NCBI RefSeq assembly: GCF_017875645.1
Contig: NZ_JAGGMR010000001.1
Location: 5,270,001-5,334,000, forward strand
Direction: 5' to 3'
DNA: 64,000 nucleotides
DNA from: Nocardia goodfellowii
GTDB taxonomy: Bacteria > Actinomycetota > Actinomycetes > Mycobacteriales > Mycobacteriaceae
In this document: positions 1 through 22,349 of the stretch, piece by piece
Numbering within the stretch: position 1 is the first letter of the stretch
How the letters are laid out: each line of letters starts with the position of its first letter
Program-made: the position numbers and the translations under genes
Notes under the pieces: model-generated
Database searches by the model: none
What the model was told of the DNA's origin: nothing
What the model saw: only the letters and a program-made list of their open reading frames with translations

Positions 1-241
1 CCTCCACGCCCGCGGCGTTGACCAGAACGGTTACCGGGCCCAGCTTTTCGCGGATGGCGGCATGCGCGTCGACGACCTGGACCGGATCGGTGACATCGGC
101 GGTGAAAGCCAGATCGTCGTCATAGGATCGGCGTAGATCCACGGTGGCCACCGAATAGCCGTCCGCGCGTAGTCGTTTCGCGACCGCCGCGCCGATGCCG
201 GACGCGCCGCCGGTGACGATCGCGGTCTTCGTCGCGGTCAT
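1..241 (-). CDS. SDR family oxidoreductase, N-terminal part (cut by window edge)
   Basis: The first 80 or so residues of a short-chain dehydrogenase/reductase are visible; the rest lies beyond position 1. The glycine-rich NAD(P)-binding motif TGGASGIG sits near residues 10-17, followed by a VDLRR segment at the end of beta-2 and an LVNAAG segment. The ATG at 241 overlaps the stop of the upstream dioxygenase gene (ATGA, 238-241), so the two are almost certainly co-translated. The N-terminus (MTATKTAIVTGGASGIG) closely resembles that of the SDR at 30037-30780 (MTARTAIVTGGASGIG), which also follows a TauD gene with the same overlap. The likely role is NAD(P)-dependent oxidation of an alcohol or 3-hydroxyacyl intermediate in the cytosol; the substrate is unknown. 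Confidence 0.9.
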   Translation of the reverse strand, partial: MTATKTAIVTGGASGIGAAVAKRLRADGYSVATVDLRRSYDDDLAFTADVTDPVQVVDAHAAIREKLGPVTVLVNAAGVE

Positions 242-1044
242 CCCCAGGCCTCCTCGCCCGCGATGGTGGTGCGGTGCATGGTGCGCCGTGAGGCCGGGTC
301 GTAGGGCAGGGCCCGGTGCAGCATGCCGGTGTTGTCCCAGATCACGACGTCGTCGACGGCCCATTCATGGGTGTAGCGGAACCGCTCCTGCGCGGTCCAC
401 TCCAGCAGCTCGTCCAGGATGGCCCGGCTTTCACCGGGGTCCATGCCGACGATGTGGTCTGCGGTCGCCCCGATCACCAGGGACCGGCGGCCGTCGCGGC
501 GTTGCCAGACTAGGGAGGTCTCGTGGCTGCGCAGCCGTCGCCAGGCCGCGACTTCCTGCTCGGAGGGGTCCGGGTGCGTGAGTCGTTGCGCCGCTTCGAA
601 ACTGTGCACCACCCGCAGTTGTTCGTAGCGCTTCTGCTCCTGCTCGGGCAGGGCCTCGAACGCGGCGTAGGTACTGGCGAATTCGGTGCCGCCGCCGGTC
701 ATCGCCACGTGCCGGGCGGTGAGCATGGTCGCCTTGGCCGGCACCTCGTTGGTGGTGTCGTCGATGTGCCAGTGGAACGTGCTCTTGAGGTATTCGGCCG
801 AGGGCTGCACGGCCGGGTCGAGGGAGATCTTGAAGATCTCCTTGCCGGCCGGAGCGAGCACCGTGCCGAGTCGCCGGCTGAAGGCCAGTTGCGCCTCGTC
901 GTCGAGGTGCAGTCCCCGGATCAGCAGGACGCCTCGCCAGGTGAGTGCCTCCAGGCAGCGGCTGATCACGGTTTCGTCGAGCAGGTTCTCGACGCCCGTG
1001 ACCTCCACGCCCAGAGCTGGGCTCAGCGCTCTCGTGTGGATCAC
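238..1044 (-). CDS. TauD/TfdA-family Fe(II)/2-oxoglutarate dioxygenase
   Basis: About 268 residues, the usual size for TauD/TfdA enzymes, which couple 2-oxoglutarate decarboxylation to hydroxylation of an unactivated carbon. The iron motif is visible as WHIDD in the first half and a distal His in NTGMLHRA, with the 2-oxoglutarate-binding Arg expected in the following RRTMHR. I chose the GTG at 1044 because AAGGGAG lies just upstream, while the longer ATG at 1092 would start inside or beyond the operator-like palindrome at 1067-1081. It is a clear paralogue of the TauD protein at 30777-31604, and each is followed by an overlapping SDR gene. By context it probably hydroxylates an acid or acyl intermediate; the substrate is not determinable. 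Confidence 0.88.
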   Translation of the reverse strand: MIHTRALSPALGVEVTGVENLLDETVISRCLEALTWRGVLLIRGLHLDDEAQLAFSRRLGTVLAPAGKEIFKISLDPAVQPSAEYLKSTFHWHIDDTTNEVPAKATMLTARHVAMTGGGTEFASTYAAFEALPEQEQKRYEQLRVVHSFEAAQRLTHPDPSEQEVAAWRRLRSHETSLVWQRRDGRRSLVIGATADHIVGMDPGESRAILDELLEWTAQERFRYTHEWAVDDVVIWDNTGMLHRALPYDPASRRTMHRTTIAGEEAWG

Positions 1045-1066
1045 AAGAATCTCCCTTCCATCATTG

Positions 1067-1081
1067 GAGAACGGTACTCTC
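1067..1081. promoter_or_regulatory. GAGAAT-type operator copy 1 (upstream of TauD-SDR unit)
   Basis: GAGAACGGTACTCTC, an imperfect inverted repeat matching the perfect GAGAATnnnATTCTC sites at 14921 and 26399. It lies 23-37 bases upstream of the chosen GTG start at 1044, where it would cover the promoter. Binding by the TetR protein encoded at 14216-14875 is an inference. Confidence 0.6.
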
Positions 1082-1217
1082 GCAAATCTCATCCGGGCAA
1101 GTCCCCGGCGCGGCGCCGGGCAGCGGCTGGTGTGGGCTGACGGCCTGGTGATCGCGAAAGGCGATGGGGTTACGTAATTCCGGTCCAGCAGCTAGATTCG
1201 CCGAAAGTGATTTCAAG

Positions 1218-1245
1218 ATTCTCCAACTATGAGAATCTAGTTTCC
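1218..1245. promoter_or_regulatory. GAGAAT-type operator copy 2 (upstream of ALDH-mft operon)
   Basis: ATTCTC (1218-1223), a 7-base spacer, then GAGAAT (1231-1236). The right half can also be read as the start of an inward site, GAGAATCTAGTTTCC (1231-1245), with a weaker second arm. The same outward arrangement with a 7-base spacer occurs at 26485 and 58929. It sits directly ahead of the aldehyde dehydrogenase start at 1264. Confidence 0.6.
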
Positions 1246-1263
1246 ATGGCTGGAGGAGGCGGG

Positions 1264-2769
1264 ATGCACACTCACGATGCGACGCGGTCGAGTACGGGCG
1301 ACGAGCACCGGAACGGCGAGCCGAACGAACTCGGGCGGAGACTGCTCATCGACGGGCGGCTGGTGGCGACCGAGCGCACCTTCGCCTCACTCAACCCGGC
1401 CACCGGTGCGGTACTCGGGTACGCGCCCGACGCCACGGTGGCCGATGCCGAAGCCGCCATCGCCGCCGCCCGGCGCGCTTTCGACAGCACCGGCTGGGCC
1501 ACCGATACCGAACTCCGCGTGCGCTGCCTGCGACAGCTGCACCAAGCGCTGCTCGACCATCGGGAAGAACTGCGGGAGTTGACGATCGCGGAGGTCGGCG
1601 CGACCCGTACGCTCACCCTCGGCAATCAGCTCGACATTCCGATCGGCCTGGTGAGCTACTACGCCGAACTGCTGGAGTCCCATCCGCTGACCGAGGAGCT
1701 CCCCGAGATCGAGGCCCGGGGTCAGCGGCACCGGCGCTGGGTCGAGAAGGAACCGGCAGGCGTCGTCGCGGCGATCGTGGCCTACAACTACCCCAACCAG
1801 CTCGCCCTGGCCAAGCTGGCGCCCGCGCTGGCCGCGGGCTGCACGGTCGTGCTCAAGGGCGCCCCGGACACGCCGCTGATCACCCAGGCGCTGGGCGAGC
1901 TGATCGCGCGCTACACCGACATCCCGGCCGGCGTGGTGAATGTCCTTGCCTCCTCGGAAGTTTCGGTGGGCGAGCGCATGACCACCCATCCCGACGTGGA
2001 TATGGTGACCTTCACCGGCTCGACCGCGGTGGGCAGGCGCATCATGGCCGCGGCCGGCGAAACCCTCAAACGGGTCTTCCTGGAACTGGGCGGCAAGTCC
2101 GCCATGGTCGTGCTGGACGACGCCGACTTCGACCTGACGGCGCTGTTCGCGGCCTTCAGCGTCGTCACCCACGCGGGGCAGGGCTGCGCGCTGACCACCC
2201 GGCTGCTGGTGCCGCGAGCCCGGCACGACGAGATGGTCGCCAAGGTCGCGGCCAACTTCGGGCACGTCCGCTACGGCGACCCGGGCGACCCGAAAACCTA
2301 TATGGGACCGCTGATCAGCGCCCGTCAGCGCGACAAGGTCGACGCCATGGTGCAGCGGGCGGTGGCCGCGGGCGCGACGCTGGTGACCGGCGGGACGAAG
2401 GTCGACCCGGGCTTCTTCTATACACCGACCCTGCTGGCCGGCGTGGACCCCGACAGCGAGATCGCACAGGAGGAAGTCTTCGGCCCGGTGCTCGTGGTGA
2501 TTCCCTACACCGACGACGACGATGCCGTGCGCATCGCCAACAACTCCATCTACGGCCTCTCGGGGGGCGTGTTCAGCGCGAGCGACGAACGCGCGCTCGC
2601 CGTCGCCCGGCGCATCCGCACCGGCACGATGAGCATCAACGGCGGCAACTACTTCGCCGCCGACGCCCCTTTCGGTGGCTACAAGCAGTCCGGAATCGGC
2701 CGCGAATCGGGCGTCGCCGGACTCGAGGAGTTCTTGGAGCGCAAGACTTTCGCGGCGGTGATCCGATGA
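1264..2769 (+). CDS. NAD(P)-dependent aldehyde dehydrogenase
   Basis: About 501 residues, normal for the ALDH superfamily, which oxidises aldehydes to carboxylic acids. The general-base motif FLELGGKSA, the Rossmann FTGSTAVG and the nucleophilic Cys in GQGCALTTR are all present, as is the C-terminal EEVFGPVL and FGGYKQSGIGRE signature. The start at 1264 is preceded by GGAGGAGG (1252-1259); an upstream in-frame ATG at 1207 would overlap the operator-like repeat, so I reject it. It heads the operon that ends with mftABC, and its stop overlaps the next start (ATGA). It probably removes an aldehyde made by an upstream alcohol-oxidising SDR. It is a distant paralogue of the ALDH at 31607-33046. 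Confidence 0.93.
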   Translation: MHTHDATRSSTGDEHRNGEPNELGRRLLIDGRLVATERTFASLNPATGAVLGYAPDATVADAEAAIAAARRAFDSTGWATDTELRVRCLRQLHQALLDHREELRELTIAEVGATRTLTLGNQLDIPIGLVSYYAELLESHPLTEELPEIEARGQRHRRWVEKEPAGVVAAIVAYNYPNQLALAKLAPALAAGCTVVLKGAPDTPLITQALGELIARYTDIPAGVVNVLASSEVSVGERMTTHPDVDMVTFTGSTAVGRRIMAAAGETLKRVFLELGGKSAMVVLDDADFDLTALFAAFSVVTHAGQGCALTTRLLVPRARHDEMVAKVAANFGHVRYGDPGDPKTYMGPLISARQRDKVDAMVQRAVAAGATLVTGGTKVDPGFFYTPTLLAGVDPDSEIAQEEVFGPVLVVIPYTDDDDAVRIANNSIYGLSGGVFSASDERALAVARRIRTGTMSINGGNYFAADAPFGGYKQSGIGRESGVAGLEEFLERKTFAAVIR

Positions 2770-3971
2770 AGCCGCTGGAGGGTTTCCGGGTGCTCGAGGT
2801 CGCGATGTACGGGTTCGTCCCGTCCGCGGGCGCGGTGCTCGCCGAGTGGGGCGCCGAAGTGATCAAGATCGAGCACGCGGTGACCGGCGACCCGCAGCGC
2901 GGGCTGCGCCGGACCGGCGCGTTCGAGGTGCTGGGCGATCCGAATCCGAATTGGGAGCATCCCAATCGAGGGAAGCGCAGTGTCGGGCTCGATATGTCCA
3001 AACCGGAAGGGCGCGAGGTGCTCTACGAGCTGGCCCGGCGCTCTGATGTGTTCCTGACCAGCTTCCTGCCCGAGCACCGGCGCAAATTCGGCATCGACGT
3101 GGCGGAGATCCGCGCGGTGAATCCGGCCATCGTCTACGCCCGCGGTAGCGCGCTGGGACCGCGGGGTGCGGAGTCCGGCAAGGGCGGTTACGACATGACC
3201 GCCTTCTGGGCGCGCGGCGGGATCGCCGCCAGTCTCACCCCCGCCGGGGTGCAGGGGATGGTGCCGCCGCCGGGACCGGCCTTCGGCGACACCATTTCCG
3301 GGACCAATCTCGCGGGCGGGATCGTGGCCGCCCTGCTCAAGCGGGAGCGCACCGGCGAACCGTCGGTCGTGGACGTTTCGCTGCTGGGTAGCGGCGTGTG
3401 GGCCATGGGCCACGGGATCGCGCTGTCGGTCCATCTGGACCAGCCGATGGTGCCGCCGCCGCTGGGCGCGCACGGGTCGCCGACCAATCCGCTCTCGGGC
3501 CTGTACGTCACCGCGGACGGCCGGTATCTCTCCTTCGTCATGATGCAGCCGGCGAAGTTCTGGGCCGACGTGTGCAAGCACATCGACCGCCCGGAGCTGG
3601 CGCAGGATCCCCGCTTCGCCACCGCCGAGTCGCTGGGCGCGAATACCGCCGCGGCCGTGGAGATTCTGCAAACGGTGATCGCCACCCGGACGCTGGCCGA
3701 ATGGTCCGAACGCTTCATCACCCTGGCCGGGCCGTGGGCGCCGGTGCAGGATTCGCGGCAGGTGGCCGACGACGCGCAGGTGCGCGCGAACGAATACCTG
3801 ATCCGCGCGGGTGAACTGGAACTGGCGGCCGGTCCGGTGCAGTTCGATGTCACCGCCGCGGTCACCGGCCCGGCGCCGGAATTCGCGGCTCACACCGCGG
3901 AGGTCCTGCTCGAACTCGGCTTGGACTGGGACCGCATCATCGCACTGCAGACCGCCGGCGCGGTCACCTAG
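2766..3971 (+). CDS. CaiB/BaiF family CoA-transferase
   Basis: Class III CoA-transferase of 401 residues, the typical length. These enzymes move CoA between carboxylic acids through an aspartyl-CoA anhydride. The N-terminal Rossmann-like block reads RVLEVAMYGFVPSAG...GAEVIKIE, and GKRSVGLDM follows. The candidate catalytic Asp is in GGYDMTAFWARGG. The start overlaps the ALDH stop by four bases, so the acid released by the ALDH may be the direct CoA acceptor. Donor and acceptor are unknown. It is one of three CaiB-type proteins in the window (others at 9863-11617 and 55958-57166). Confidence 0.92.
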   Translation: MKPLEGFRVLEVAMYGFVPSAGAVLAEWGAEVIKIEHAVTGDPQRGLRRTGAFEVLGDPNPNWEHPNRGKRSVGLDMSKPEGREVLYELARRSDVFLTSFLPEHRRKFGIDVAEIRAVNPAIVYARGSALGPRGAESGKGGYDMTAFWARGGIAASLTPAGVQGMVPPPGPAFGDTISGTNLAGGIVAALLKRERTGEPSVVDVSLLGSGVWAMGHGIALSVHLDQPMVPPPLGAHGSPTNPLSGLYVTADGRYLSFVMMQPAKFWADVCKHIDRPELAQDPRFATAESLGANTAAAVEILQTVIATRTLAEWSERFITLAGPWAPVQDSRQVADDAQVRANEYLIRAGELELAAGPVQFDVTAAVTGPAPEFAAHTAEVLLELGLDWDRIIALQTAGAVT

Positions 3972-4005
3972 CAGCACCGGCGCAGTAGAGAATTGGGAGA
4001 ATCCG

Positions 4006-5187
4006 ATGCCACACATCGCCGCGATCGGCACCTATCTGCCGTGCTGGGGCGTCCCCGGGCACCGCGTACCCGGGGACGACGAGGACGCGGTGACGCTGGC
4101 CGTGGAGGCCGGGCGGGCCGTGCTCGACATCGGCGCGGGCGCGGCACATGTGGTGATCCTGGTCAGCCGGGACCTGCCGTTGCTGGAGGGCGGGAACGCC
4201 GCGGCACTGCTGGCCGGGCTCGGGCTGGACCCGGAACTCGAGGTCGTCGAGCGGTTGGGCGGCGCTCCCGCCGCGCTGGACGCGGTCAGTTCGGCCCGGC
4301 CGCGCACGCTGGTCATCGGCGTCGATCTGGAACCGGCCGGGGCGGTGGCGGTCTTGACCGCCGATCGTGGTCTGGAAGTGCGCACGGCCGCGCGAATCTC
4401 GCGCAGCCTGCCGGTACGTACCCGTACCGCGGCCGGTGAGGTGCACGACTACGGCGATCCGCGCCTGCTGCACGCCCGCGGACTGCTGGCGGCCTTCGAG
4501 GCCACCTGGCTGGACGTACCCGTGGCGGTGGCGGGCGTCGAACACGAGCGAGCGGTCGCCCTGTGCGCCGGAAACCCGGTGCCGCTACCCACTTTCGGCG
4601 CCAGCGCGGGACTCTTCGCGCTCGCGGCGCTGGCCGAAGCCGGCACGACCGGTCCACTGGTCGGCGTCGAGCAGGGCAGCCTGTTCGGAATCGCGGTCGC
4701 GGGCGGCAGCGCGCGGGTGCGCCGGCGAGAACCGGCCGCCCGCGCGAAACCCGAGGGCGTACTGCGCCCGGGCGCCGAACTGCTCATCTCGCTGGCCGCC
4801 TACGAGCGGGCCTTCGAGGCCAAGGTGCGCTGGGTCGCCGGGAAGCATTCCGGCGGAACGGAATTGGATTTCCCGCCGCGCTACCGGGTGGGCGACGACG
4901 GCGCGCTCGCCACCAACTACAGCCTGGTGCCGCTGCCGCGCACGGGCACCGTCTACACCGAGGTGACGGTGCACGTTCCGGTGCCCGGCCTCAAAACGCC
5001 CTACTCGCTGGTCATCGTGGAACTCGACGAGGTCGGGGTGCGGGCACTGGCCAAGGTGACCGGCACCGAACCGGGCACCGTCGACATCGGCGATCGGGGC
5101 CGAATGACGCTGCGGCGCGTGGCGGTGCGATCGGGAGTGCCCGATTACGGCTACGCGTTCGAGCCGGAGAAGGAAGTCGCGGTATGA
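4006..5187 (+). CDS. Degenerate ketosynthase/HMG-CoA-synthase-like protein fused to an OB-fold (DUF35-like) domain
   Basis: 393 residues. The first 270 or so resemble the thiolase/ketosynthase-III fold (start MPHIAAIGTYLPCWG), but the region where the active-site Cys is expected reads ERLGGAPAALDAV, with no Cys. The last 130 residues resemble the OB-fold of DUF35 proteins (LPRTGTVYTEVTVHVPV, PYSLVIVELDE), yet the preceding zinc-ribbon position reads LDFPPRYRVG with no paired Cys. The start at 4006 is set by GGGAG seven bases upstream; longer in-frame extension would overlap the CoA-transferase. It overlaps the thiolase gene that follows, so it may be a non-catalytic partner of that thiolase, like the OB-fold partners of Ltp-type enzymes. 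Function is inferred, not shown. Confidence 0.78.
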   Translation: MPHIAAIGTYLPCWGVPGHRVPGDDEDAVTLAVEAGRAVLDIGAGAAHVVILVSRDLPLLEGGNAAALLAGLGLDPELEVVERLGGAPAALDAVSSARPRTLVIGVDLEPAGAVAVLTADRGLEVRTAARISRSLPVRTRTAAGEVHDYGDPRLLHARGLLAAFEATWLDVPVAVAGVEHERAVALCAGNPVPLPTFGASAGLFALAALAEAGTTGPLVGVEQGSLFGIAVAGGSARVRRREPAARAKPEGVLRPGAELLISLAAYERAFEAKVRWVAGKHSGGTELDFPPRYRVGDDGALATNYSLVPLPRTGTVYTEVTVHVPVPGLKTPYSLVIVELDEVGVRALAKVTGTEPGTVDIGDRGRMTLRRVAVRSGVPDYGYAFEPEKEVAV

Positions 5188-6344
5188 AGCGAGTGGCCAT
5201 TATCGGGGCGGGGATGACGCCCTTCGCCGAGCATTTCGCGCTGGGCATCAAGGATTTGCTGCCGATGGCGTTCGCCGAATGCGCCGCCACGGTGGACAAG
5301 GGCTTGGCCAAGGCCGATATCCAGGCCGCCTGGTTCGGTGAGTGCGGCACCGCGGACGGTTTCCCCTCCGGCATCCTGGCCGACACGCTCGGGCTGGCCG
5401 ACATTCCGGTGTCGCGGATCGAGAACGCCTGCGCCACCGGCCATGACGCGCTGCGCAACGCCCTGTACGGCATCGCCTCGGGGGCCTGCGACGTGGCCTT
5501 GGTGCTGGGTGCGGACAAACTGCGGGAATCGGCGTCCAAGGACATGCTGTGGGGCTGGGAGGCGATGTCACGCGACAATGCCTGGGACTATCCGCTCGGA
5601 CTGGTCTCCCCGGCCGAGTTCGCGCTGCACGTCACCCGCTACCTGCACGAATCGCCCGCCACCCGGGAGCATCTCGCGATGGTCGCGGTCAAGAATCACC
5701 GCTTCGGGGCCCGGAACCGCAAGGCGCGCTTGCAGTTCGAGATCACCATGGAGCAAGCGCTCAGCGCGCCCACCGTGGTGACGCCGTTCGGCCTCTACGA
5801 CTGCGCACCGCAGAGCGACGGCGCGGCGGCCCTGATATTGGCCGCCGAGGACGTGGTGGACCGCTACACCGATCGCCCGGTGTGGGTGCGCGGCGTCGGC
5901 CTCGGCCTGGATTCGGTGATGCACCAGCACAAGCGGGACATGACCACCTTCCCGGCGAGTGTGCGCGCGGCCCGGCGGGCCTTCGGTATGGCGGGTCTGA
6001 CCCCGTCGGACGTGGACGTCGCCGAGGTGCACGACTTCTTCACCGGCGTCGAGTTGATCAGCTGCGAGGACCTCGGTTTCGCCGACCGGTTCGAGGCGTA
6101 CAAGCTCGTCGAATCGGGCGCTACCGGGCCCGGTGGCACGCTGCCGGTGAACACCAGCGGCGGCCTCAAATCCAAGGGGCATCCGCCCGGCGCCACCGGT
6201 GTCGCCCAATGCGTCGAGTTGTTCGAACAGCTGCGCGGCAATGCCGTCAACCAGGTCGACGGTGCGCGAATCGGGTTGGCGCACACCGTCGGTGGTCCGA
6301 CCGCCGTCGCCGCCGTCACTCTGCTCGAGGGACCGGAGCGCTAG
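5184..6344 (+). CDS. SCP2/lipid-transfer-type thiolase
   Basis: 386 residues of the SCP2-thiolase (Ltp) type. The nucleophilic Cys is intact in ENACATGHDALRN, and the later active-site blocks are visible as VAEVHDFFTGVE and NTSGGLKSKGHPPGATG. Members cleave 3-ketoacyl-CoA with free CoA, releasing acetyl- or propionyl-CoA. The start overlaps the stop of the degenerate ketosynthase/OB gene (ATGA, 5184-5187), which suggests the two products form a complex. This is the only thiolase in the window with a catalytic Cys; the homologue at 18195-19853 lacks it. Substrate probably a side-chain or ring-derived 3-ketoacyl-CoA. Confidence 0.88.
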   Translation: MKRVAIIGAGMTPFAEHFALGIKDLLPMAFAECAATVDKGLAKADIQAAWFGECGTADGFPSGILADTLGLADIPVSRIENACATGHDALRNALYGIASGACDVALVLGADKLRESASKDMLWGWEAMSRDNAWDYPLGLVSPAEFALHVTRYLHESPATREHLAMVAVKNHRFGARNRKARLQFEITMEQALSAPTVVTPFGLYDCAPQSDGAAALILAAEDVVDRYTDRPVWVRGVGLGLDSVMHQHKRDMTTFPASVRAARRAFGMAGLTPSDVDVAEVHDFFTGVELISCEDLGFADRFEAYKLVESGATGPGGTLPVNTSGGLKSKGHPPGATGVAQCVELFEQLRGNAVNQVDGARIGLAHTVGGPTAVAAVTLLEGPER

Positions 6345-6346
6345 CG

Positions 6347-6727
6347 ATGGGGGAGGTGGTCGCCCTGGTCGCCGGGGGAGCCGAACGCCGGCGCGCGGTG
6401 CTGCGGCGGGCCGGGCGGTACGCCGGGGCCGGCGGGGCCGTCCATGTCGTCTGCGATGGCTCGCTGACGCTGAAGCTGGCGGGGGTGTTCGCGCTCTACG
6501 GCCTCACCATGGATGCCGACTTCTTGGAGCGCGCGAACTTCGTCCGGACCGCGGACACGCTGGCGCCCTACGCCTGCGGCTGGACGTGGTCGCACACCGT
6601 GCTGGGTGCGCGCACCGAAGCGTTCGGGCTGGCCGCTCGGCTGGGTGCGCCGCTCGTACTGCCCGCTCGCTCGGCGCTGCGCAGAAAAAGCCTTGCCGAG
6701 GAGAGCGCGATCGTGGTCACGGTGTGA
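6347..6727 (+). CDS. Unrecognised 126-residue protein preceding mftA
   Basis: I do not recognise a family. The start ATG at 6347 lies two bases after the thiolase stop and the gene ends 40 bases before mftA, so it is in the same operon. The sequence begins MGEVVALVAGGAERRRAVLRR and contains a small hydrophobic stretch VHVVCDGSLTLKLAGVFAL, with single Cys residues near the first and second thirds. No signal peptide or clear membrane segment is visible. The alternating beta/alpha look (VALVAGG..., VHVVCDG..., PLVLPAR) suggests a small alpha/beta fold. Position suggests a role linked to the thiolase or to the mycofactocin genes, but that is only context. Confidence 0.7.
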   Translation: MGEVVALVAGGAERRRAVLRRAGRYAGAGGAVHVVCDGSLTLKLAGVFALYGLTMDADFLERANFVRTADTLAPYACGWTWSHTVLGARTEAFGLAARLGAPLVLPARSALRRKSLAEESAIVVTV

Positions 6728-6767
6728 CCGAACACCGGAATCGAAAGCAGACCGAGAGGGAGATGTC

Positions 6768-6869
6768 ATGAGTAGCAATGGTTTCGACAGCGACGGCGAT
6801 GACGGTTCGCTGATCGAGGAGGTCCTCGTCGAGGAGGTATCGATCGACGGAATGTGCGGTGTCTACTGA
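6768..6869 (+). CDS. mftA: Mycofactocin precursor peptide MftA
   Basis: A 33-residue peptide starting MSSNGFDSDGDDG and ending in IDGMCGVY, the hallmark C-terminus of mycofactocin precursors. In the known pathway MftC decarboxylates and cross-links the terminal Val-Tyr, and that dipeptide becomes the redox cofactor core. The acidic leader (GSLIEEVLVEEVS) fits recognition by MftB. A GGGAG ribosome site precedes the ATG. The gene overlaps mftB by 11 bases. It is unusual that this copy is downstream of an aldehyde dehydrogenase, CoA-transferase and thiolase in a catabolic operon rather than heading a stand-alone mft cluster. Confidence 0.95.
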   Translation: MSSNGFDSDGDDGSLIEEVLVEEVSIDGMCGVY

Positions 6870-7152
6870 GCCGCGGCGGGCCTTCGAACTGGATGACGCC
6901 TGGGAATTGTCCGAGCAGGTTTCGGTGCGACCGGAACGGTTCGGCGCCCTGCTCTACCACTTCGGCACCCGGCGATTGTCGTTCCTGAAGAGTCCCACGC
7001 TGAGCCGAGTGGTCCAGACCCTGGCCGGCGCGGCGTCGGCGCGGCAGGCGTGCGTGCTCGCCGGGGTCACCGCGGCTGAGCTGCCCGCCTATCGCACAGC
7101 CCTGGCCGGACTGGCCGCCACCGAGATGATCCGGAAGAGGGATGCCGCATGA
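6859..7152 (+). CDS. mftB: Mycofactocin peptide chaperone MftB (PqqD/RRE-like)
   Basis: 97 residues, the usual MftB size. MftB is a PqqD-like peptide-binding protein that presents MftA to the radical SAM enzyme MftC. The FELDDAWELSEQVSVRPERFGALLYHF segment and the following RLSFLKSPTL are typical of this family. Translation probably starts at the GTG at 6859, inside the mftA coding end, and the stop overlaps the mftC start (ATGA, 7149-7152). Order and overlaps (mftA-mftB-mftC) match canonical clusters. Identification rests on family resemblance plus the flanking genes. Confidence 0.92.
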   Translation: MSTEPRRAFELDDAWELSEQVSVRPERFGALLYHFGTRRLSFLKSPTLSRVVQTLAGAASARQACVLAGVTAAELPAYRTALAGLAATEMIRKRDAA

Positions 7153-8330
7153 CGGCAGCACCACTGTCACTGGCCGAGCAATTCCAGTCCGGCCTGGACG
7201 CGCCCATCTGCCTGACCTGGGAACTCACCTACGCGTGCAATCTGGCCTGCGTGCACTGCCTGTCCAGCTCCGGCCGGCGGGACCCGCGCGAGCTGAGCAC
7301 GGCCGAATGTCTGGCGCTGATCGACGAATTCGAGCGGATGCGGGTGTTCTATGTGAACATCGGCGGCGGCGAGCCCACCGTGCGGCCGGACTTCTGGGAG
7401 ATCGTCGACTACGCGACCGCCCATCACGTCGGGGTCAAGTTCTCCACCAACGGAATTCGGATCAACCCCGCGGCGGCCGCCCGCATCGCCGCCAACAGTT
7501 ATGTGGACGTGCAGATTTCCCTGGACGGTGCTTCCGCGGCCGTCAACGACGCGGTCCGCGGACAAGGCTCTTACGCGACCGCGATCCGAGCCATGGAACT
7601 GCTGCGGTCCGCCAGCGCGGACGGCTTCAAGCTCTCGGTCGTGATGACCCGGCACAATGTGGACCAACTGGACGGGCTGCTGGCCATCGCCGACCTGTTC
7701 GACGCCCAGCTGCGCCTCACCCGGCTGCGCCCCTCGGGCCGCGGCGCGGACAGCTGGGACGAACTGCACCTGCGACCCGAACAGCAACGCAGACTCTACG
7801 ACTGGCTGCTCGACCACGGCGACCAGGTACTCACCGGCGACTCGTTCTTCCACCTGGCTGCCTACGGCCAAGCCCTGCCCGGCCTGAACCTGTGCGGCGC
7901 GGGCCGGGTGGTGTGTCTGGTCGATCCGATCGGCGACGTCTACGCCTGCCCCTTCGCCATCCACGACGAGTTCAAAGCCGGAAACATTCGCTCCGCAGGC
8001 GGTTTCACCAGCATCTGGCGCGAGTCGGCGCGCTTCGCCGAGCTCCGCCGCCCGCAGACCGGCGGCGCCTGCACCTCCTGCTCCGCCTTCGACAGCTGCC
8101 GTGGTGGCTGCATGGCGGCGAAGTTCTTCACCGGGCTCCCCCTCGACGGCCCCGACCCGGAATGTGTTCGCGGGCATGGCGAATCGGCACTGCGCTCAGT
8201 GGACCGTGCAGGCGCGCCTCGGCCGTCACAGGATCATTCGCGGACGGGGCGATCGGTGGTGATCGGTATGCCAGGCATACCGGCTCGGGCTTGTGACGAA
8301 AATCCGCTCGCGGGGTTCGGGGCCTCTTGA
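7149..8330 (+). CDS. mftC: Mycofactocin radical SAM maturase MftC
   Basis: 393 residues, close to the usual MftC length. The radical SAM cluster motif CxxxCxxC is at residues 30, 34 and 37 (CNLACVHC), followed by GGGEPTVRPDF for SAM binding. A SPASM-type C-terminal region carries further Cys in CGAGRVVC, YACPF and CTSCSAFDSCRGGC, which hold auxiliary iron-sulphur clusters. In the known pathway MftC acts on the Val-Tyr end of MftA with MftB. The tail after about residue 345 is rich in Arg, Ser and Pro and may be disordered. No mftD, mftE or mftF follows: the next gene is on the other strand. Those steps must be encoded elsewhere. Confidence 0.95.
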   Translation: MTAAPLSLAEQFQSGLDAPICLTWELTYACNLACVHCLSSSGRRDPRELSTAECLALIDEFERMRVFYVNIGGGEPTVRPDFWEIVDYATAHHVGVKFSTNGIRINPAAAARIAANSYVDVQISLDGASAAVNDAVRGQGSYATAIRAMELLRSASADGFKLSVVMTRHNVDQLDGLLAIADLFDAQLRLTRLRPSGRGADSWDELHLRPEQQRRLYDWLLDHGDQVLTGDSFFHLAAYGQALPGLNLCGAGRVVCLVDPIGDVYACPFAIHDEFKAGNIRSAGGFTSIWRESARFAELRRPQTGGACTSCSAFDSCRGGCMAAKFFTGLPLDGPDPECVRGHGESALRSVDRAGAPRPSQDHSRTGRSVVIGMPGIPARACDENPLAGFGAS

Positions 8331-8477
8331 GTGCGGTTCAGGGGTGGTGGGTTGGGTGGTCGTTGTGAGTGCCGTGGGGTGGTGACTTCAGTGTGTTGTG
8401 GTGGGCGGTGTAGCCAGTGGCGGTTCGGTCTGGCGACAGGGCTGACGTGGTCGGTAGTTCGGGTTGCCGCGCGAGGA

Positions 8478-9869
8478 TCACCGGGTGGTGAGGTATGCCG
8501 GTTGCCCGGCGACGATGGTGGCCGCGACGAAGTCGGCTCCAGTTGCCGGGTCGGCCGCGATCTCCTCCGGTGCGACGCGGAGCAAGGTCAGGTCGGCGAC
8601 CGCTCCTGGTGTCACCGTGCGGAGCACCGCCGGTCGGTCGGCGAGGCCGAAGAAGAGCTGAAGCGCTTTGGCCAGCGGAATCGCTTCTGACGCAGCTCTA
8701 TTCGATCGGGTGGTGGCTGCCGTGAGGACGCGCCAAGGGTCGGGACCGCCGAAGGGCGCGTCCGAACCGGCGGCGACCGCTACTCCGCCGTGCAGTAGTG
8801 AACCCAGCCGCCACAGGTCCGCGCGATCCTCATCGGGTACGTCGCGGGCGTACTGGGCGGCGCGCTCGACCGGGAAATGCGGCTGAGTCACCACGGTGAG
8901 CGCTCGAGTGCGTAGCTGGTCCAGCACCGAATCGGGAATTATCGCGCCGTGCTCGATCCGGTCGCCGGTCGCTGTACCGGCGTTGTCGAGTGCGGCGAGG
9001 GTGAGCATCAGTTGCACTCGGGTCACGCAGTGCACGGCGACCGGGCGGCCCGCCGCATGTGCGTCGCGGATGGCGCCGGTGAAATCGTCGAGCGTCGGGA
9101 GGGTTGTGTCGTCCAGCAGAATCTTGGTGGGCCCCAACGTGAAGCGCTCGATCCCCGGATCGGTGATAGTCGGGGGAGCCATGCAGTGCACTCGCTGCAC
9201 GATTCGCCCATCGCCGACCGCTTCGGCCAATCCCGACACTTCGTGCTGCGCCAGACCGGGCGTGGCGTCGGTGAATCCCGTGATCCCGTGCCGCGCGGCC
9301 TGGCCGCTGACGCTCATCAGATCCAAGGGCAAGGTGGGAATGCGTTCGCCCAGCCAGGAATCCAGCCGCCACAGCCGCCCTGTGGGCTGCCCGCCCGCGT
9401 CGCGCTCGACACCCGGAGCGGCACACTCTTCGAGGTCGACCTCGGCGCACCCGGCCGAATTGAGCATCCAGAGTGCGCCGCTGCGATGCTGGATCCGGAT
9501 GGGCCGACCAGGCAGGGCGCGGTCGAGCAATCGGCGATCCAGGACGCCGGCCACCGACTCGTGGTAGCCCGTGCCTCGAATCCATTGCCCGGCAGGAAGT
9601 TCGGAGTCCAGGCGGCGAAGCTCGCGGAACAGCCCGTCGAGGTCCGCGACCTGCTCCGGACCCAGGGGCACCGAACCCGCGCGGGCGGCGAGCGCACGCA
9701 GATGAATGTGGTGGTCGTGCAGACCGGGCAGCAGCCAGCCGCCCCGCGCGTCGATATCGTCCTCACCTGGCAGCGGCCGAAAACCGGTTCCGCACTCGAC
9801 GATTCGCCCACCTCGCCACCGCACGTCCGAATGCACGCTGCCGAACACCCGAGCGCGCCGGATCAGCAT
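8478..9869 (-). CDS. Amidohydrolase family protein (YtcJ-like metal-dependent hydrolase)
   Basis: 463 residues. The amidohydrolase metal motif HxH is visible in GLHDHHIHLRAL near the start, with later VAVHCVTR and a catalytic-Asp candidate in AAGSDAPFGGPDPW, plus the usual beta-sandwich end (PGAVADLTLLR). YtcJ-like members hydrolyse amide or related C-N/C-O bonds at a one- or two-metal centre. The ATG at 9869 overlaps the end of the CaiB-type gene at 9863, marking it as the last gene of the leftward TetR-headed operon. The 147 bases between it and mftC hold nothing I recognise, including no clear terminator hairpin. The substrate is unknown. Confidence 0.85.
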   Translation of the reverse strand: MLIRRARVFGSVHSDVRWRGGRIVECGTGFRPLPGEDDIDARGGWLLPGLHDHHIHLRALAARAGSVPLGPEQVADLDGLFRELRRLDSELPAGQWIRGTGYHESVAGVLDRRLLDRALPGRPIRIQHRSGALWMLNSAGCAEVDLEECAAPGVERDAGGQPTGRLWRLDSWLGERIPTLPLDLMSVSGQAARHGITGFTDATPGLAQHEVSGLAEAVGDGRIVQRVHCMAPPTITDPGIERFTLGPTKILLDDTTLPTLDDFTGAIRDAHAAGRPVAVHCVTRVQLMLTLAALDNAGTATGDRIEHGAIIPDSVLDQLRTRALTVVTQPHFPVERAAQYARDVPDEDRADLWRLGSLLHGGVAVAAGSDAPFGGPDPWRVLTAATTRSNRAASEAIPLAKALQLFFGLADRPAVLRTVTPGAVADLTLLRVAPEEIAADPATGADFVAATIVAGQPAYLTTR

Positions 9870-21280: not shown

Positions 21281-21475
21281 CTATTCGCTGATGGAGATCG
21301 CGCGTTCGGGGCAGGAATGCACAGCCTCGCGCACCTCGGCCTCCTGATCGGCGGGGACGTCTGCGCTGACAGGGGAGGAGTGGCCGTCGATCTCACTGAG
21401 CTCGAAGGCTTTCGGGGCGATCATGGCGCACAGCGTGTGGCCCTGACAGCGTTCCGGATCGACTCGGACTTTCAC
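21281..21475 (-). CDS. 3Fe-4S ferredoxin, P450 redox partner
   Basis: 64 residues with Cys at 10, 16 and 55 in the pattern CxxHxxC...CP, where the second Cys of a 4Fe-4S motif is replaced by His13. This is typical of actinobacterial 3Fe-4S ferredoxins that feed P450s. It sits between the P450 gene (9 bases downstream) and the SDR (13 bases upstream). No ferredoxin reductase gene is present in the window, so a housekeeping reductase is presumably used. Confidence 0.94.
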   Translation of the reverse strand: MKVRVDPERCQGHTLCAMIAPKAFELSEIDGHSSPVSADVPADQEAEVREAVHSCPERAISISE

Positions 21476-21488
21476 GAGTTCATTCCCT

Positions 21489-22349
21489 TCAGATGTGGAA
21501 GTCGTACCACTTCAGGTAGCCGCCGGCATCGACGCGCAGCTGGGTACCGGTGATGAAGCGGGACTCGTCGGAGGCCAGGAACAACACCGCGTCGGTGATG
21601 TCGCCGGGCTCGACATAGGGCACCGGCATCGCCTGCTGAACGAAGAAGGCGGGTTCGGCGTCGGCGCGGGTCGGATTCTCCAGATCGGGCCGGAAGGACC
21701 GGTACATCGGTTCGCTCTGCAGCATGTCGGTGTTGCAGTTGGTCGGGTGTACCACGTTGGCGCGAATCCGCTTGGGCGCGATATGCGTCGCGAGCTCGTG
21801 GATGTACTGCGACAGCAGCCGTTTGGCGACCATGTAGGCGACGCCGCCGGGATCCTTGCCCGGCTGATCCACTTTGCTGACGTCCATCAGCGCCGCGATC
21901 GAGCCGGTCGCGACGATCGAGGAGCCGTCCCCGAGATGCGGAATAGCGGCCTGCACGGCGTTGATGACGCCGACCAGATTGGTATCGATGACATCGGACC
22001 AGGCCTGCCACTGCGGCTGCCCCTTCATGCCGGCGATGCCGGCCTGGGCCACCACGATGTCGAGCCGGCCCAATTCACCTACGCCGCGTTCGAGTACGGC
22101 GCGCAACGCGGCGGCATCGCGCACGTCGGCCGGTTCGGCGATGATGCGCCGGCCCGCCTTCTCCACCAGCCGGACGGTCTCGTCGAGATCCTCCGGCGTG
22201 GACAGCGAATAGCCGATGCTGTCGATATTGCGGCAGATATCGACCGCGATGATGTCCGCGCCCTCTTCGGCCAGACGGACGGCATGGCTGCGGCCCTGGC
22301 CGCGCGCTGCCCCGGTGATGAAGGCGACCTTGCCCTCGACTCGTCCCAC
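21489..22349 (-). CDS. Mycofactocin-type SDR oxidoreductase
   Basis: 286 residues of the SDR subfamily associated with mycofactocin. The N-terminus VAFITGAARGQGRSHAVRLA and the insert DICRNIDSIGYSLSTPEDL after beta-2 are characteristic of that subfamily, whose members hold a non-exchangeable nicotinamide cofactor and pass electrons to mycofactocin. Catalytic Ser150, Tyr172 and Lys176 (AYMVAK) are present. It lies beside the ferredoxin and P450 genes, so it probably oxidises the hydroxylated product. Its presence in the same island as mftABC makes a functional link plausible. The subfamily call is from sequence pattern, not from a database search. Confidence 0.88.
   Translation of the reverse strand: MGRVEGKVAFITGAARGQGRSHAVRLAEEGADIIAVDICRNIDSIGYSLSTPEDLDETVRLVEKAGRRIIAEPADVRDAAALRAVLERGVGELGRLDIVVAQAGIAGMKGQPQWQAWSDVIDTNLVGVINAVQAAIPHLGDGSSIVATGSIAALMDVSKVDQPGKDPGGVAYMVAKRLLSQYIHELATHIAPKRIRANVVHPTNCNTDMLQSEPMYRSFRPDLENPTRADAEPAFFVQQAMPVPYVEPGDITDAVLFLASDESRFITGTQLRVDAGGYLKWYDFHI

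Follow-up and report, generated by a model that had tools for sequence, protein, structure and literature searches.

The canonical mycofactocin (mft) cluster, as described for Mycobacterium smegmatis, comprises mftA-F together with mftR and mftG (PMC11778925). In this pathway MftC cyclises the core of the precursor MftA, after which AHDP is released by MftE, premycofactocin is formed by MftD and sugars are attached by MftF (PMC11778925). Partial sets are also on record, without mftD in Saccharopolyspora (PMC11162802) and without mftB, mftC and mftE in Herbiconiux (PMC11778925). The mft copy described here shares the mftA-B-C order of M. smegmatis but, set against the cluster as that source presents it, has no adjoining D, E, F, R or G and sits behind a catabolic operon. 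The Saccharopolyspora and Herbiconiux sets are likewise incomplete, although what is reported for them is the absence of genes, with no additional A-B-C copy linked to a catabolic operon. A search of the openly licensed literature returned no report of such an extra copy.

The stretch of DNA analysed (hereafter the window) is 64 kb long and covers positions 5,270,001-5,334,000 of a 7,948,519-base contig, the main one of the two that make up a genome of 7,982,434 bases. On its plus strand it carries genes for an aldehyde dehydrogenase (ALDH), a CaiB-type CoA-transferase, an OB-fold protein, a thiolase and an orphan protein of 126 residues (p126), followed by mftA2, mftB2 and mftC2. The gaps from ALDH to mftC2 are -4, 34, -4, 2, 40, -11 and -4 bp, a spacing across 1207-8330 that is compatible with a single operon. 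The divergent neighbor at 238-1092 (minus strand) encodes a TauD-type dioxygenase (PF02668, 187.9 bits), and has a counterpart in 23 of the 80 related loci compared below. ALDH (1207-2769; PF00171, 495.5 bits) has further in-frame ATGs at 1246 and 1264, and at 657.2 bits it falls outside the Rv0768-type family TIGR04284 (cut-off 775). It is followed by the family III CoA-transferase (2766-3971; PF02515, 272.8 bits). The 393-residue product of 4006-5187, which the original prediction had read as a degenerate ketosynthase, has a C-terminal ChsH2-type OB fold (PF01796, 44.3 bits) as its sole Pfam domain and is more aptly regarded as a partner of the thiolase; a sequence search of the PDB gave no match to it. 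The thiolase itself (5184-6344) matches PF22691 (144.8 bits) and PF00108 (53.5 bits), scores that come from a scan of the longer open reading frame 4563-6341. Compared with the benzoylsuccinyl-CoA thiolase subunits BbsA and BbsB, the pair encoded by 4006-6344 reaches 34.7 of the 250 and 158.6 of the 750 bits that would be needed, so their likeness is one of resemblance only.

The mft genes begin at 6768 and not, as had been proposed, at 6347, since 6347-6727 (plus strand) encodes p126, in which a Pfam scan found no domain. The presence of mftA, mftB and mftC is confirmed, and by curated NCBIfam cut-offs their products are precursor, chaperone and maturase. MftA2 (6768-6869, 33 residues, C-terminus IDGMCGVY) scores 45.2 bits on TIGR03969 (cut-off 25) and 43.8 on PF23709 (cut-off 27), the precursor-binding chaperone MftB2 (6859-7152) 103.4 bits on TIGR03967 (cut-off 33), and the radical SAM/SPASM maturase MftC2 (7149-8330) 630.1 bits on TIGR03962 (cut-off 265). 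MftC2 has CxxxCxxC at residues 30/34/37 and retains all 14 cysteine positions common to six intact homologs, and the start overlaps and ribosome-binding-like sites are undamaged. An MftB with 85% identity to MftB2 is among the protein matches. MftC2 is 71% identical to the other MftC of the genome, and as a diverged paralog it might be thought to make a product other than mycofactocin. We regard this as very improbable, as the score of MftC2 lies far above the maturase cut-off and the C-terminus of MftA2 is the same as that of MftA1 over EEVSIDGMCGVY. The related suggestion that MftA2 is a variant precursor was rejected, its 23.6 bits falling under the cut-off of 30 of the variant-MftA model.

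Two matches each over cut-off were found in the genome for MftC and MftA, mftABC2 being the second copy, and one each for MftD, MftE, MftF and MftR, all outside the window. The locus at 2.05 Mb holds mftR2 (minus strand), mftA1, a fused mftB-mftC, mftF and mftG, and that at about 4.15 Mb holds mftR (minus strand), mftE and mftD. In line with the original prediction, no mftD, mftE or mftF was seen around this copy and no MftR relative was found in the whole 64 kb, so that the locus is not a canonical cluster, in which mftABC is accompanied by mftD, E, F and mftR. That A-B-C is all there is to the pathway of the organism is not supported, as D, E, F and R lie at the two other loci together with a second A and BC; the idea that mftD/E/F are missing from the organism is thereby ruled out. 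The original prediction had also named a complete cluster elsewhere, able to make good the loss of this copy, as evidence against itself, and the genome-wide search goes some way in that direction by finding mftA, mftC and mftD/E/F at 2.05 and 4.15 Mb. Among 148 Nocardia genomes, 127 have an MftC match and 125 an MftE match, and since these lie megabases apart on one contig in G038, G041, G043 and G087, an mftE set apart from mftC is not unusual. The mftB-mftC fusion is a single frame of 518 residues (L004 8855-10411; G000:C1, about 2.055 Mb) under an MftR2-type regulator. At G000:C1:4144944-4147502, mftR is divergent to the mftE-mftD pair, with no mftA, B or C alongside.

What, then, did the copy in the window look like before? 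Nocardia jejuensis (G024; loci L053 and L119) has the same catabolic operon and flanks, and its MftC and MftB are 90% and 87% identical to those of the window. It differs in that the operon is followed by a complete cluster of mftR and A-B-C-E-SDR-F-D, an arrangement we call type II, so that mftR, the promoter region, mftE, an SDR, mftF and mftD are all present; its genome has no second MftC match. The G024 MftR scores 234 bits on TIGR03968 (cut-off 224.9) and the cluster SDR belongs to TIGR04504, a family with no match in the window genome or, likewise, in control genomes, so that its absence here carries no information on cofactor users. Aligned to G024, the window lacks L053 8841-9539 (about 0.7 kb, with mftR and the core promoter), the gap falling at window 6669-6701. 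A second gap lies at the junction 8318-8477, where alignment blocks stop at 8317 and restart at 8478; G024 has 4.27 kb here (L053 11173-15446) with mftE, the SDR, mftF and mftD, and the genes beyond are collinear. We infer that both gaps are deletions in the window lineage. A divergent mftR adjoins mftA in each of the nine other type II clusters compared and in G024. It also stands next to the decayed copy of G134, though not in the window or in G087, and this pattern argues that the full unit is ancestral.

A stretch of about 70 bp that ends with the mftA2 start can be aligned to the sequence preceding mftA in G024, and in the window it also encodes the last codons of p126, which appear to derive from the former mft promoter region. 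This fits a deletion scar, the left breakpoint of which is uncertain as part of the stretch also aligns to the end of the G024 p126. So far p126 is known only from Nocardia, with five other p126 proteins in a protein search and matches in 18 of 150 Nocardia genomes and 11 of the 80 related loci, all of these Nocardia. The C-terminal end of p126 from Nocardia sp. NPDC050712 resembles that of the window protein.

We favor, with moderate confidence, the explanation that mftABC2 has been captured at the end of the catabolic operon, that E, D and F act on its product in trans, and that the SDR of the pathway is the user. A type II cluster would have landed directly downstream of the catabolic operon of a mycofactocin-using P450/SDR/ALDH/CoA/thiolase pathway, and mftR, the core mft promoter and E-SDR-F-D would then have been deleted in the window lineage. 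This would leave mftABC2 transcribed mainly by read-through, such that induction of the pathway brings extra precursor and the committing maturase. Each cofactor molecule uses up one MftA, while MftE, MftD and MftF can be shared, which would make it worthwhile to hold A-B-C under the control of the pathway wherever other copies of E, D and F exist. Completion of the cofactor in trans would fall to MftF from the 2.05 Mb locus and to MftE and MftD from that at 4.15 Mb, and the pathway SDR would use it. The further proposition, that the pathway is split at the peptide-to-small-molecule boundary with MftA-MftB-MftC placed under a catabolic pathway in need of the cofactor and MftE/MftD/MftF shared from other loci, is one we put forward only tentatively. 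If true, MftE, MftD and MftF finish the product of a maturase encoded elsewhere.

Retention of A-B-C alone at this site was seen in two Nocardia, the window genome and G087. In G087 (L058) mftA-B-C likewise follow the thiolase and p126, and another MftC cluster is found elsewhere in the genome. It differs from the window in that the ALDH-CaiB pair is not directly upstream. It also keeps a 106-bp gap with a palindrome of 9-bp arms before mftA, so that this copy was not captured in the same manner, a point against the capture explanation. A tree of 41 MftC sequences places the window copy and that of G024 as sisters (support 100/99). The order of branching among this pair, G087, two type II copies (G068 and G135a) and the relic of G134 is not resolved in the tree, and the pair falls outside a 100/99 clade of 27 rows that takes in type I (including the other MftC of the window genome), type III and four more of the type II copies. 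The tree does not support the type II copies as one clade. Since G024, the sister of the window copy, retains the full set, reduction may have occurred twice, with the window genome and G087 losing E-SDR-F-D and mftR separately.

A different account of the same gaps is that mftABC2 is a half-decayed leftover. The second cluster, made superfluous by the copies at 2.05 and 4.15 Mb, would then be disappearing one gene after another, and A-B-C would be the part that still remains. E, the SDR, F, D and mftR are indeed already missing, and six other Nocardia (G134, G056, G084, G120, G116 and G009) hold a decayed mftC in or near the same locus. Furthermore, another MftC match is present in all eight genomes in which the copy is reduced or decayed (these six, G087 and the window genome), whereas G024 with its full cluster has none. 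In G134, G056 and G084 about 2 kb separate the relic from p126 or the thiolase. In G120, G116 and G009 its distance from p126 is 9-12 kb, and TauD-type and SDR genes are its neighbors. Five relics have lost 8 to 12 of the 14 cysteines, and CxxxCxxC is gone from G056 and G084; the cysteines of the G009 relic were compared up to about residue 300 of MftC2. All six (L074, L075, L076, L077, L078 and L079) are open mftC frames with no detectable mftA. Those of G056 and G084 stay open for about 290-310 codons despite the loss of CxxxCxxC, and in G134 an apparent MftA leader runs straight into MftC.

Against such decay, dN/dS of MftC2 is 0.08 with G024 and 0.11 with G087, its two nearest intact copies, within the range of 0.08-0.30 over the 21 pairs of seven intact mftC copies. 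Pairs that include a relic give 0.21-0.80, which overlaps slightly with the intact range, and the three closest relics (G120, G116 and G009) give 0.54, 0.38 and 0.34 among themselves; dS exceeds 1 in several pairs, for which the ratios are rough. Together with the cysteines these values rule out mftC2 as a pseudogene, and the intact start overlaps and ribosome-binding-like sites also speak against a leftover. The branch to MftC2 is somewhat longer than that to the G024 copy (0.12 vs 0.061 in protein distance, about 2-fold). Residue changes counted with outgroups are 15, 15 and 17 for MftC2 vs 11, 12 and 10 for G024, and 5 and 6 for MftB2 vs 3 and 2. The operon controls are mixed (window vs G024: thiolase 7-8 vs 6, OB-fold protein 8 vs 8, ALDH 13 vs 19, CaiB 18 vs 7), and there may be a slight relaxation of MftC2 and MftB2. 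On balance we consider a leftover unlikely. As part of the split-pathway reading, G024, the A-B-C-only copies and the relics can be viewed, with some reserve, as a series from full cluster to wreck. Full, A-B-C only and decayed would then form a natural series for the pruning of a redundant peptide-cofactor cluster.

The capture explanation turns on how mftABC2 is transcribed. As the regulator and core promoter of G024 are missing here, mftABC2 probably depends on read-through. An AT-rich CATTATCTT-like element, which in G024 stands upstream of the aligned stretch, is also gone from the window, and p126 and mftA2 are only 40 bp apart. These features weigh against the view that mftABC2 is a spare copy driven from a promoter in p126 or the junction and held down by the MftR of the 4.14 Mb locus, and hence under general mycofactocin and not catabolic control. 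What speaks for this view is a perfect palindrome, GTCAC-N3-GTGAC, at 6716-6728, a putative MftR operator that overlaps the p126 stop codon and resembles in layout the published operator core GGCA-N5-TGCC (PMC8728441); the genome does encode one MftR over cut-off. The palindrome is the only match in the 64 kb, with 0.08 expected and at least one match in 8 of 100 shuffles, and a palindrome of the layout GTCA-N5-TGAC, or nearly so, stands before mftA in each of the nine other type II clusters. However, the filter was fixed after the sequences had been viewed, and neither G024, G087 nor the other two mft loci of the genome, including the mftR-mftE gap, passed it. An MftR-controlled spare copy seems improbable to us. 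As the operator-like palindrome remains at the junction, control is perhaps not purely catabolic, and read-through with possible gating by MftR is the more cautious description.

The arrangement can be set against catabolic loci in other Mycobacteriales. Of 209 stretches encoding a related thiolase, the best 80 loci were analyzed, 74 of them with at least 6.7 kb upstream and 70 with 3 kb downstream of the thiolase. Loci with P450-ferredoxin-SDR and ALDH-CaiB-OB-thiolase genes orthologous to those of the window are found among Mycobacteriales. In the window the presumed user arm lies on the minus strand 13 kb beyond mftC2, and comprises a cytochrome P450 (19943-21271; PF00067, 76.5 bits; ortholog in 64 of the 80 loci), a ferredoxin (21281-21475; PF13459, 60 bits; in 67 of 80) and a mycofactocin-coupled SDR (21489-22349; TIGR03971, 352 bits, cut-off 300). 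The P450 and the mycofactocin-type SDR named in the original prediction are thus real. The nearest solved structures of the SDR are carveol dehydrogenases, and those of the P450 are a CYP125 ancestor and P450cin. An SDR at least 62% identical to that of the window lies in the upstream flank of the operon in 62 of the 74 loci, accompanied by the P450 in 60; one of the 62 (L132) was scored on TIGR03971 and reached 338.1 bits against the cut-off of 300. The 12 loci without an upstream SDR include G024, in which, as in the window, the SDR ortholog (92%) is found further downstream. This association supports the assignment of the locus to a mycofactocin user. Judged from the families, the P450 would catalyze a hydroxylation, the SDR and ALDH would then oxidize the alcohol and the aldehyde, and CoA transfer by CaiB would precede thiolytic cleavage. 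In contrast, mft genes follow the thiolase in only one of the 70 related loci, the G024 locus L119, and in none of the other 69; mftABC behind this operon is a rare arrangement. That cofactor maturation would be co-induced with its user enzyme, as originally predicted, is supported at the level of gene anatomy by the recurrent SDR and the missing regulator and promoter.

Taken as a natural rearrangement, the locus seems to tie the committing steps of maturation to a single oxidative pathway that includes a mycofactocin-coupled SDR, and if so the cofactor should increase in response to a substrate inducing the operon. It bears on what raises mycofactocin supply and on which enzymes are served beyond simple alcohols. 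Two TIGR03971 SDRs over cut-off are encoded in the genome, one 48 kb upstream of mftABC2 and the other 13 kb downstream; the chance of both being so close is about 1.5e-4, a simple chance computed after the fact. A search for other cofactor users near mftABC2 found the sole TIGR03989 match over cut-off at 7.35 Mb. The SDR at the left edge of the window (L005 12526-13242) was considered as a further TIGR03971 member and set aside at 174.4 bits (cut-off 300). The upstream TIGR03971 SDR lies at G000:C1:5227538-5228356, with a P450-like match just before it.
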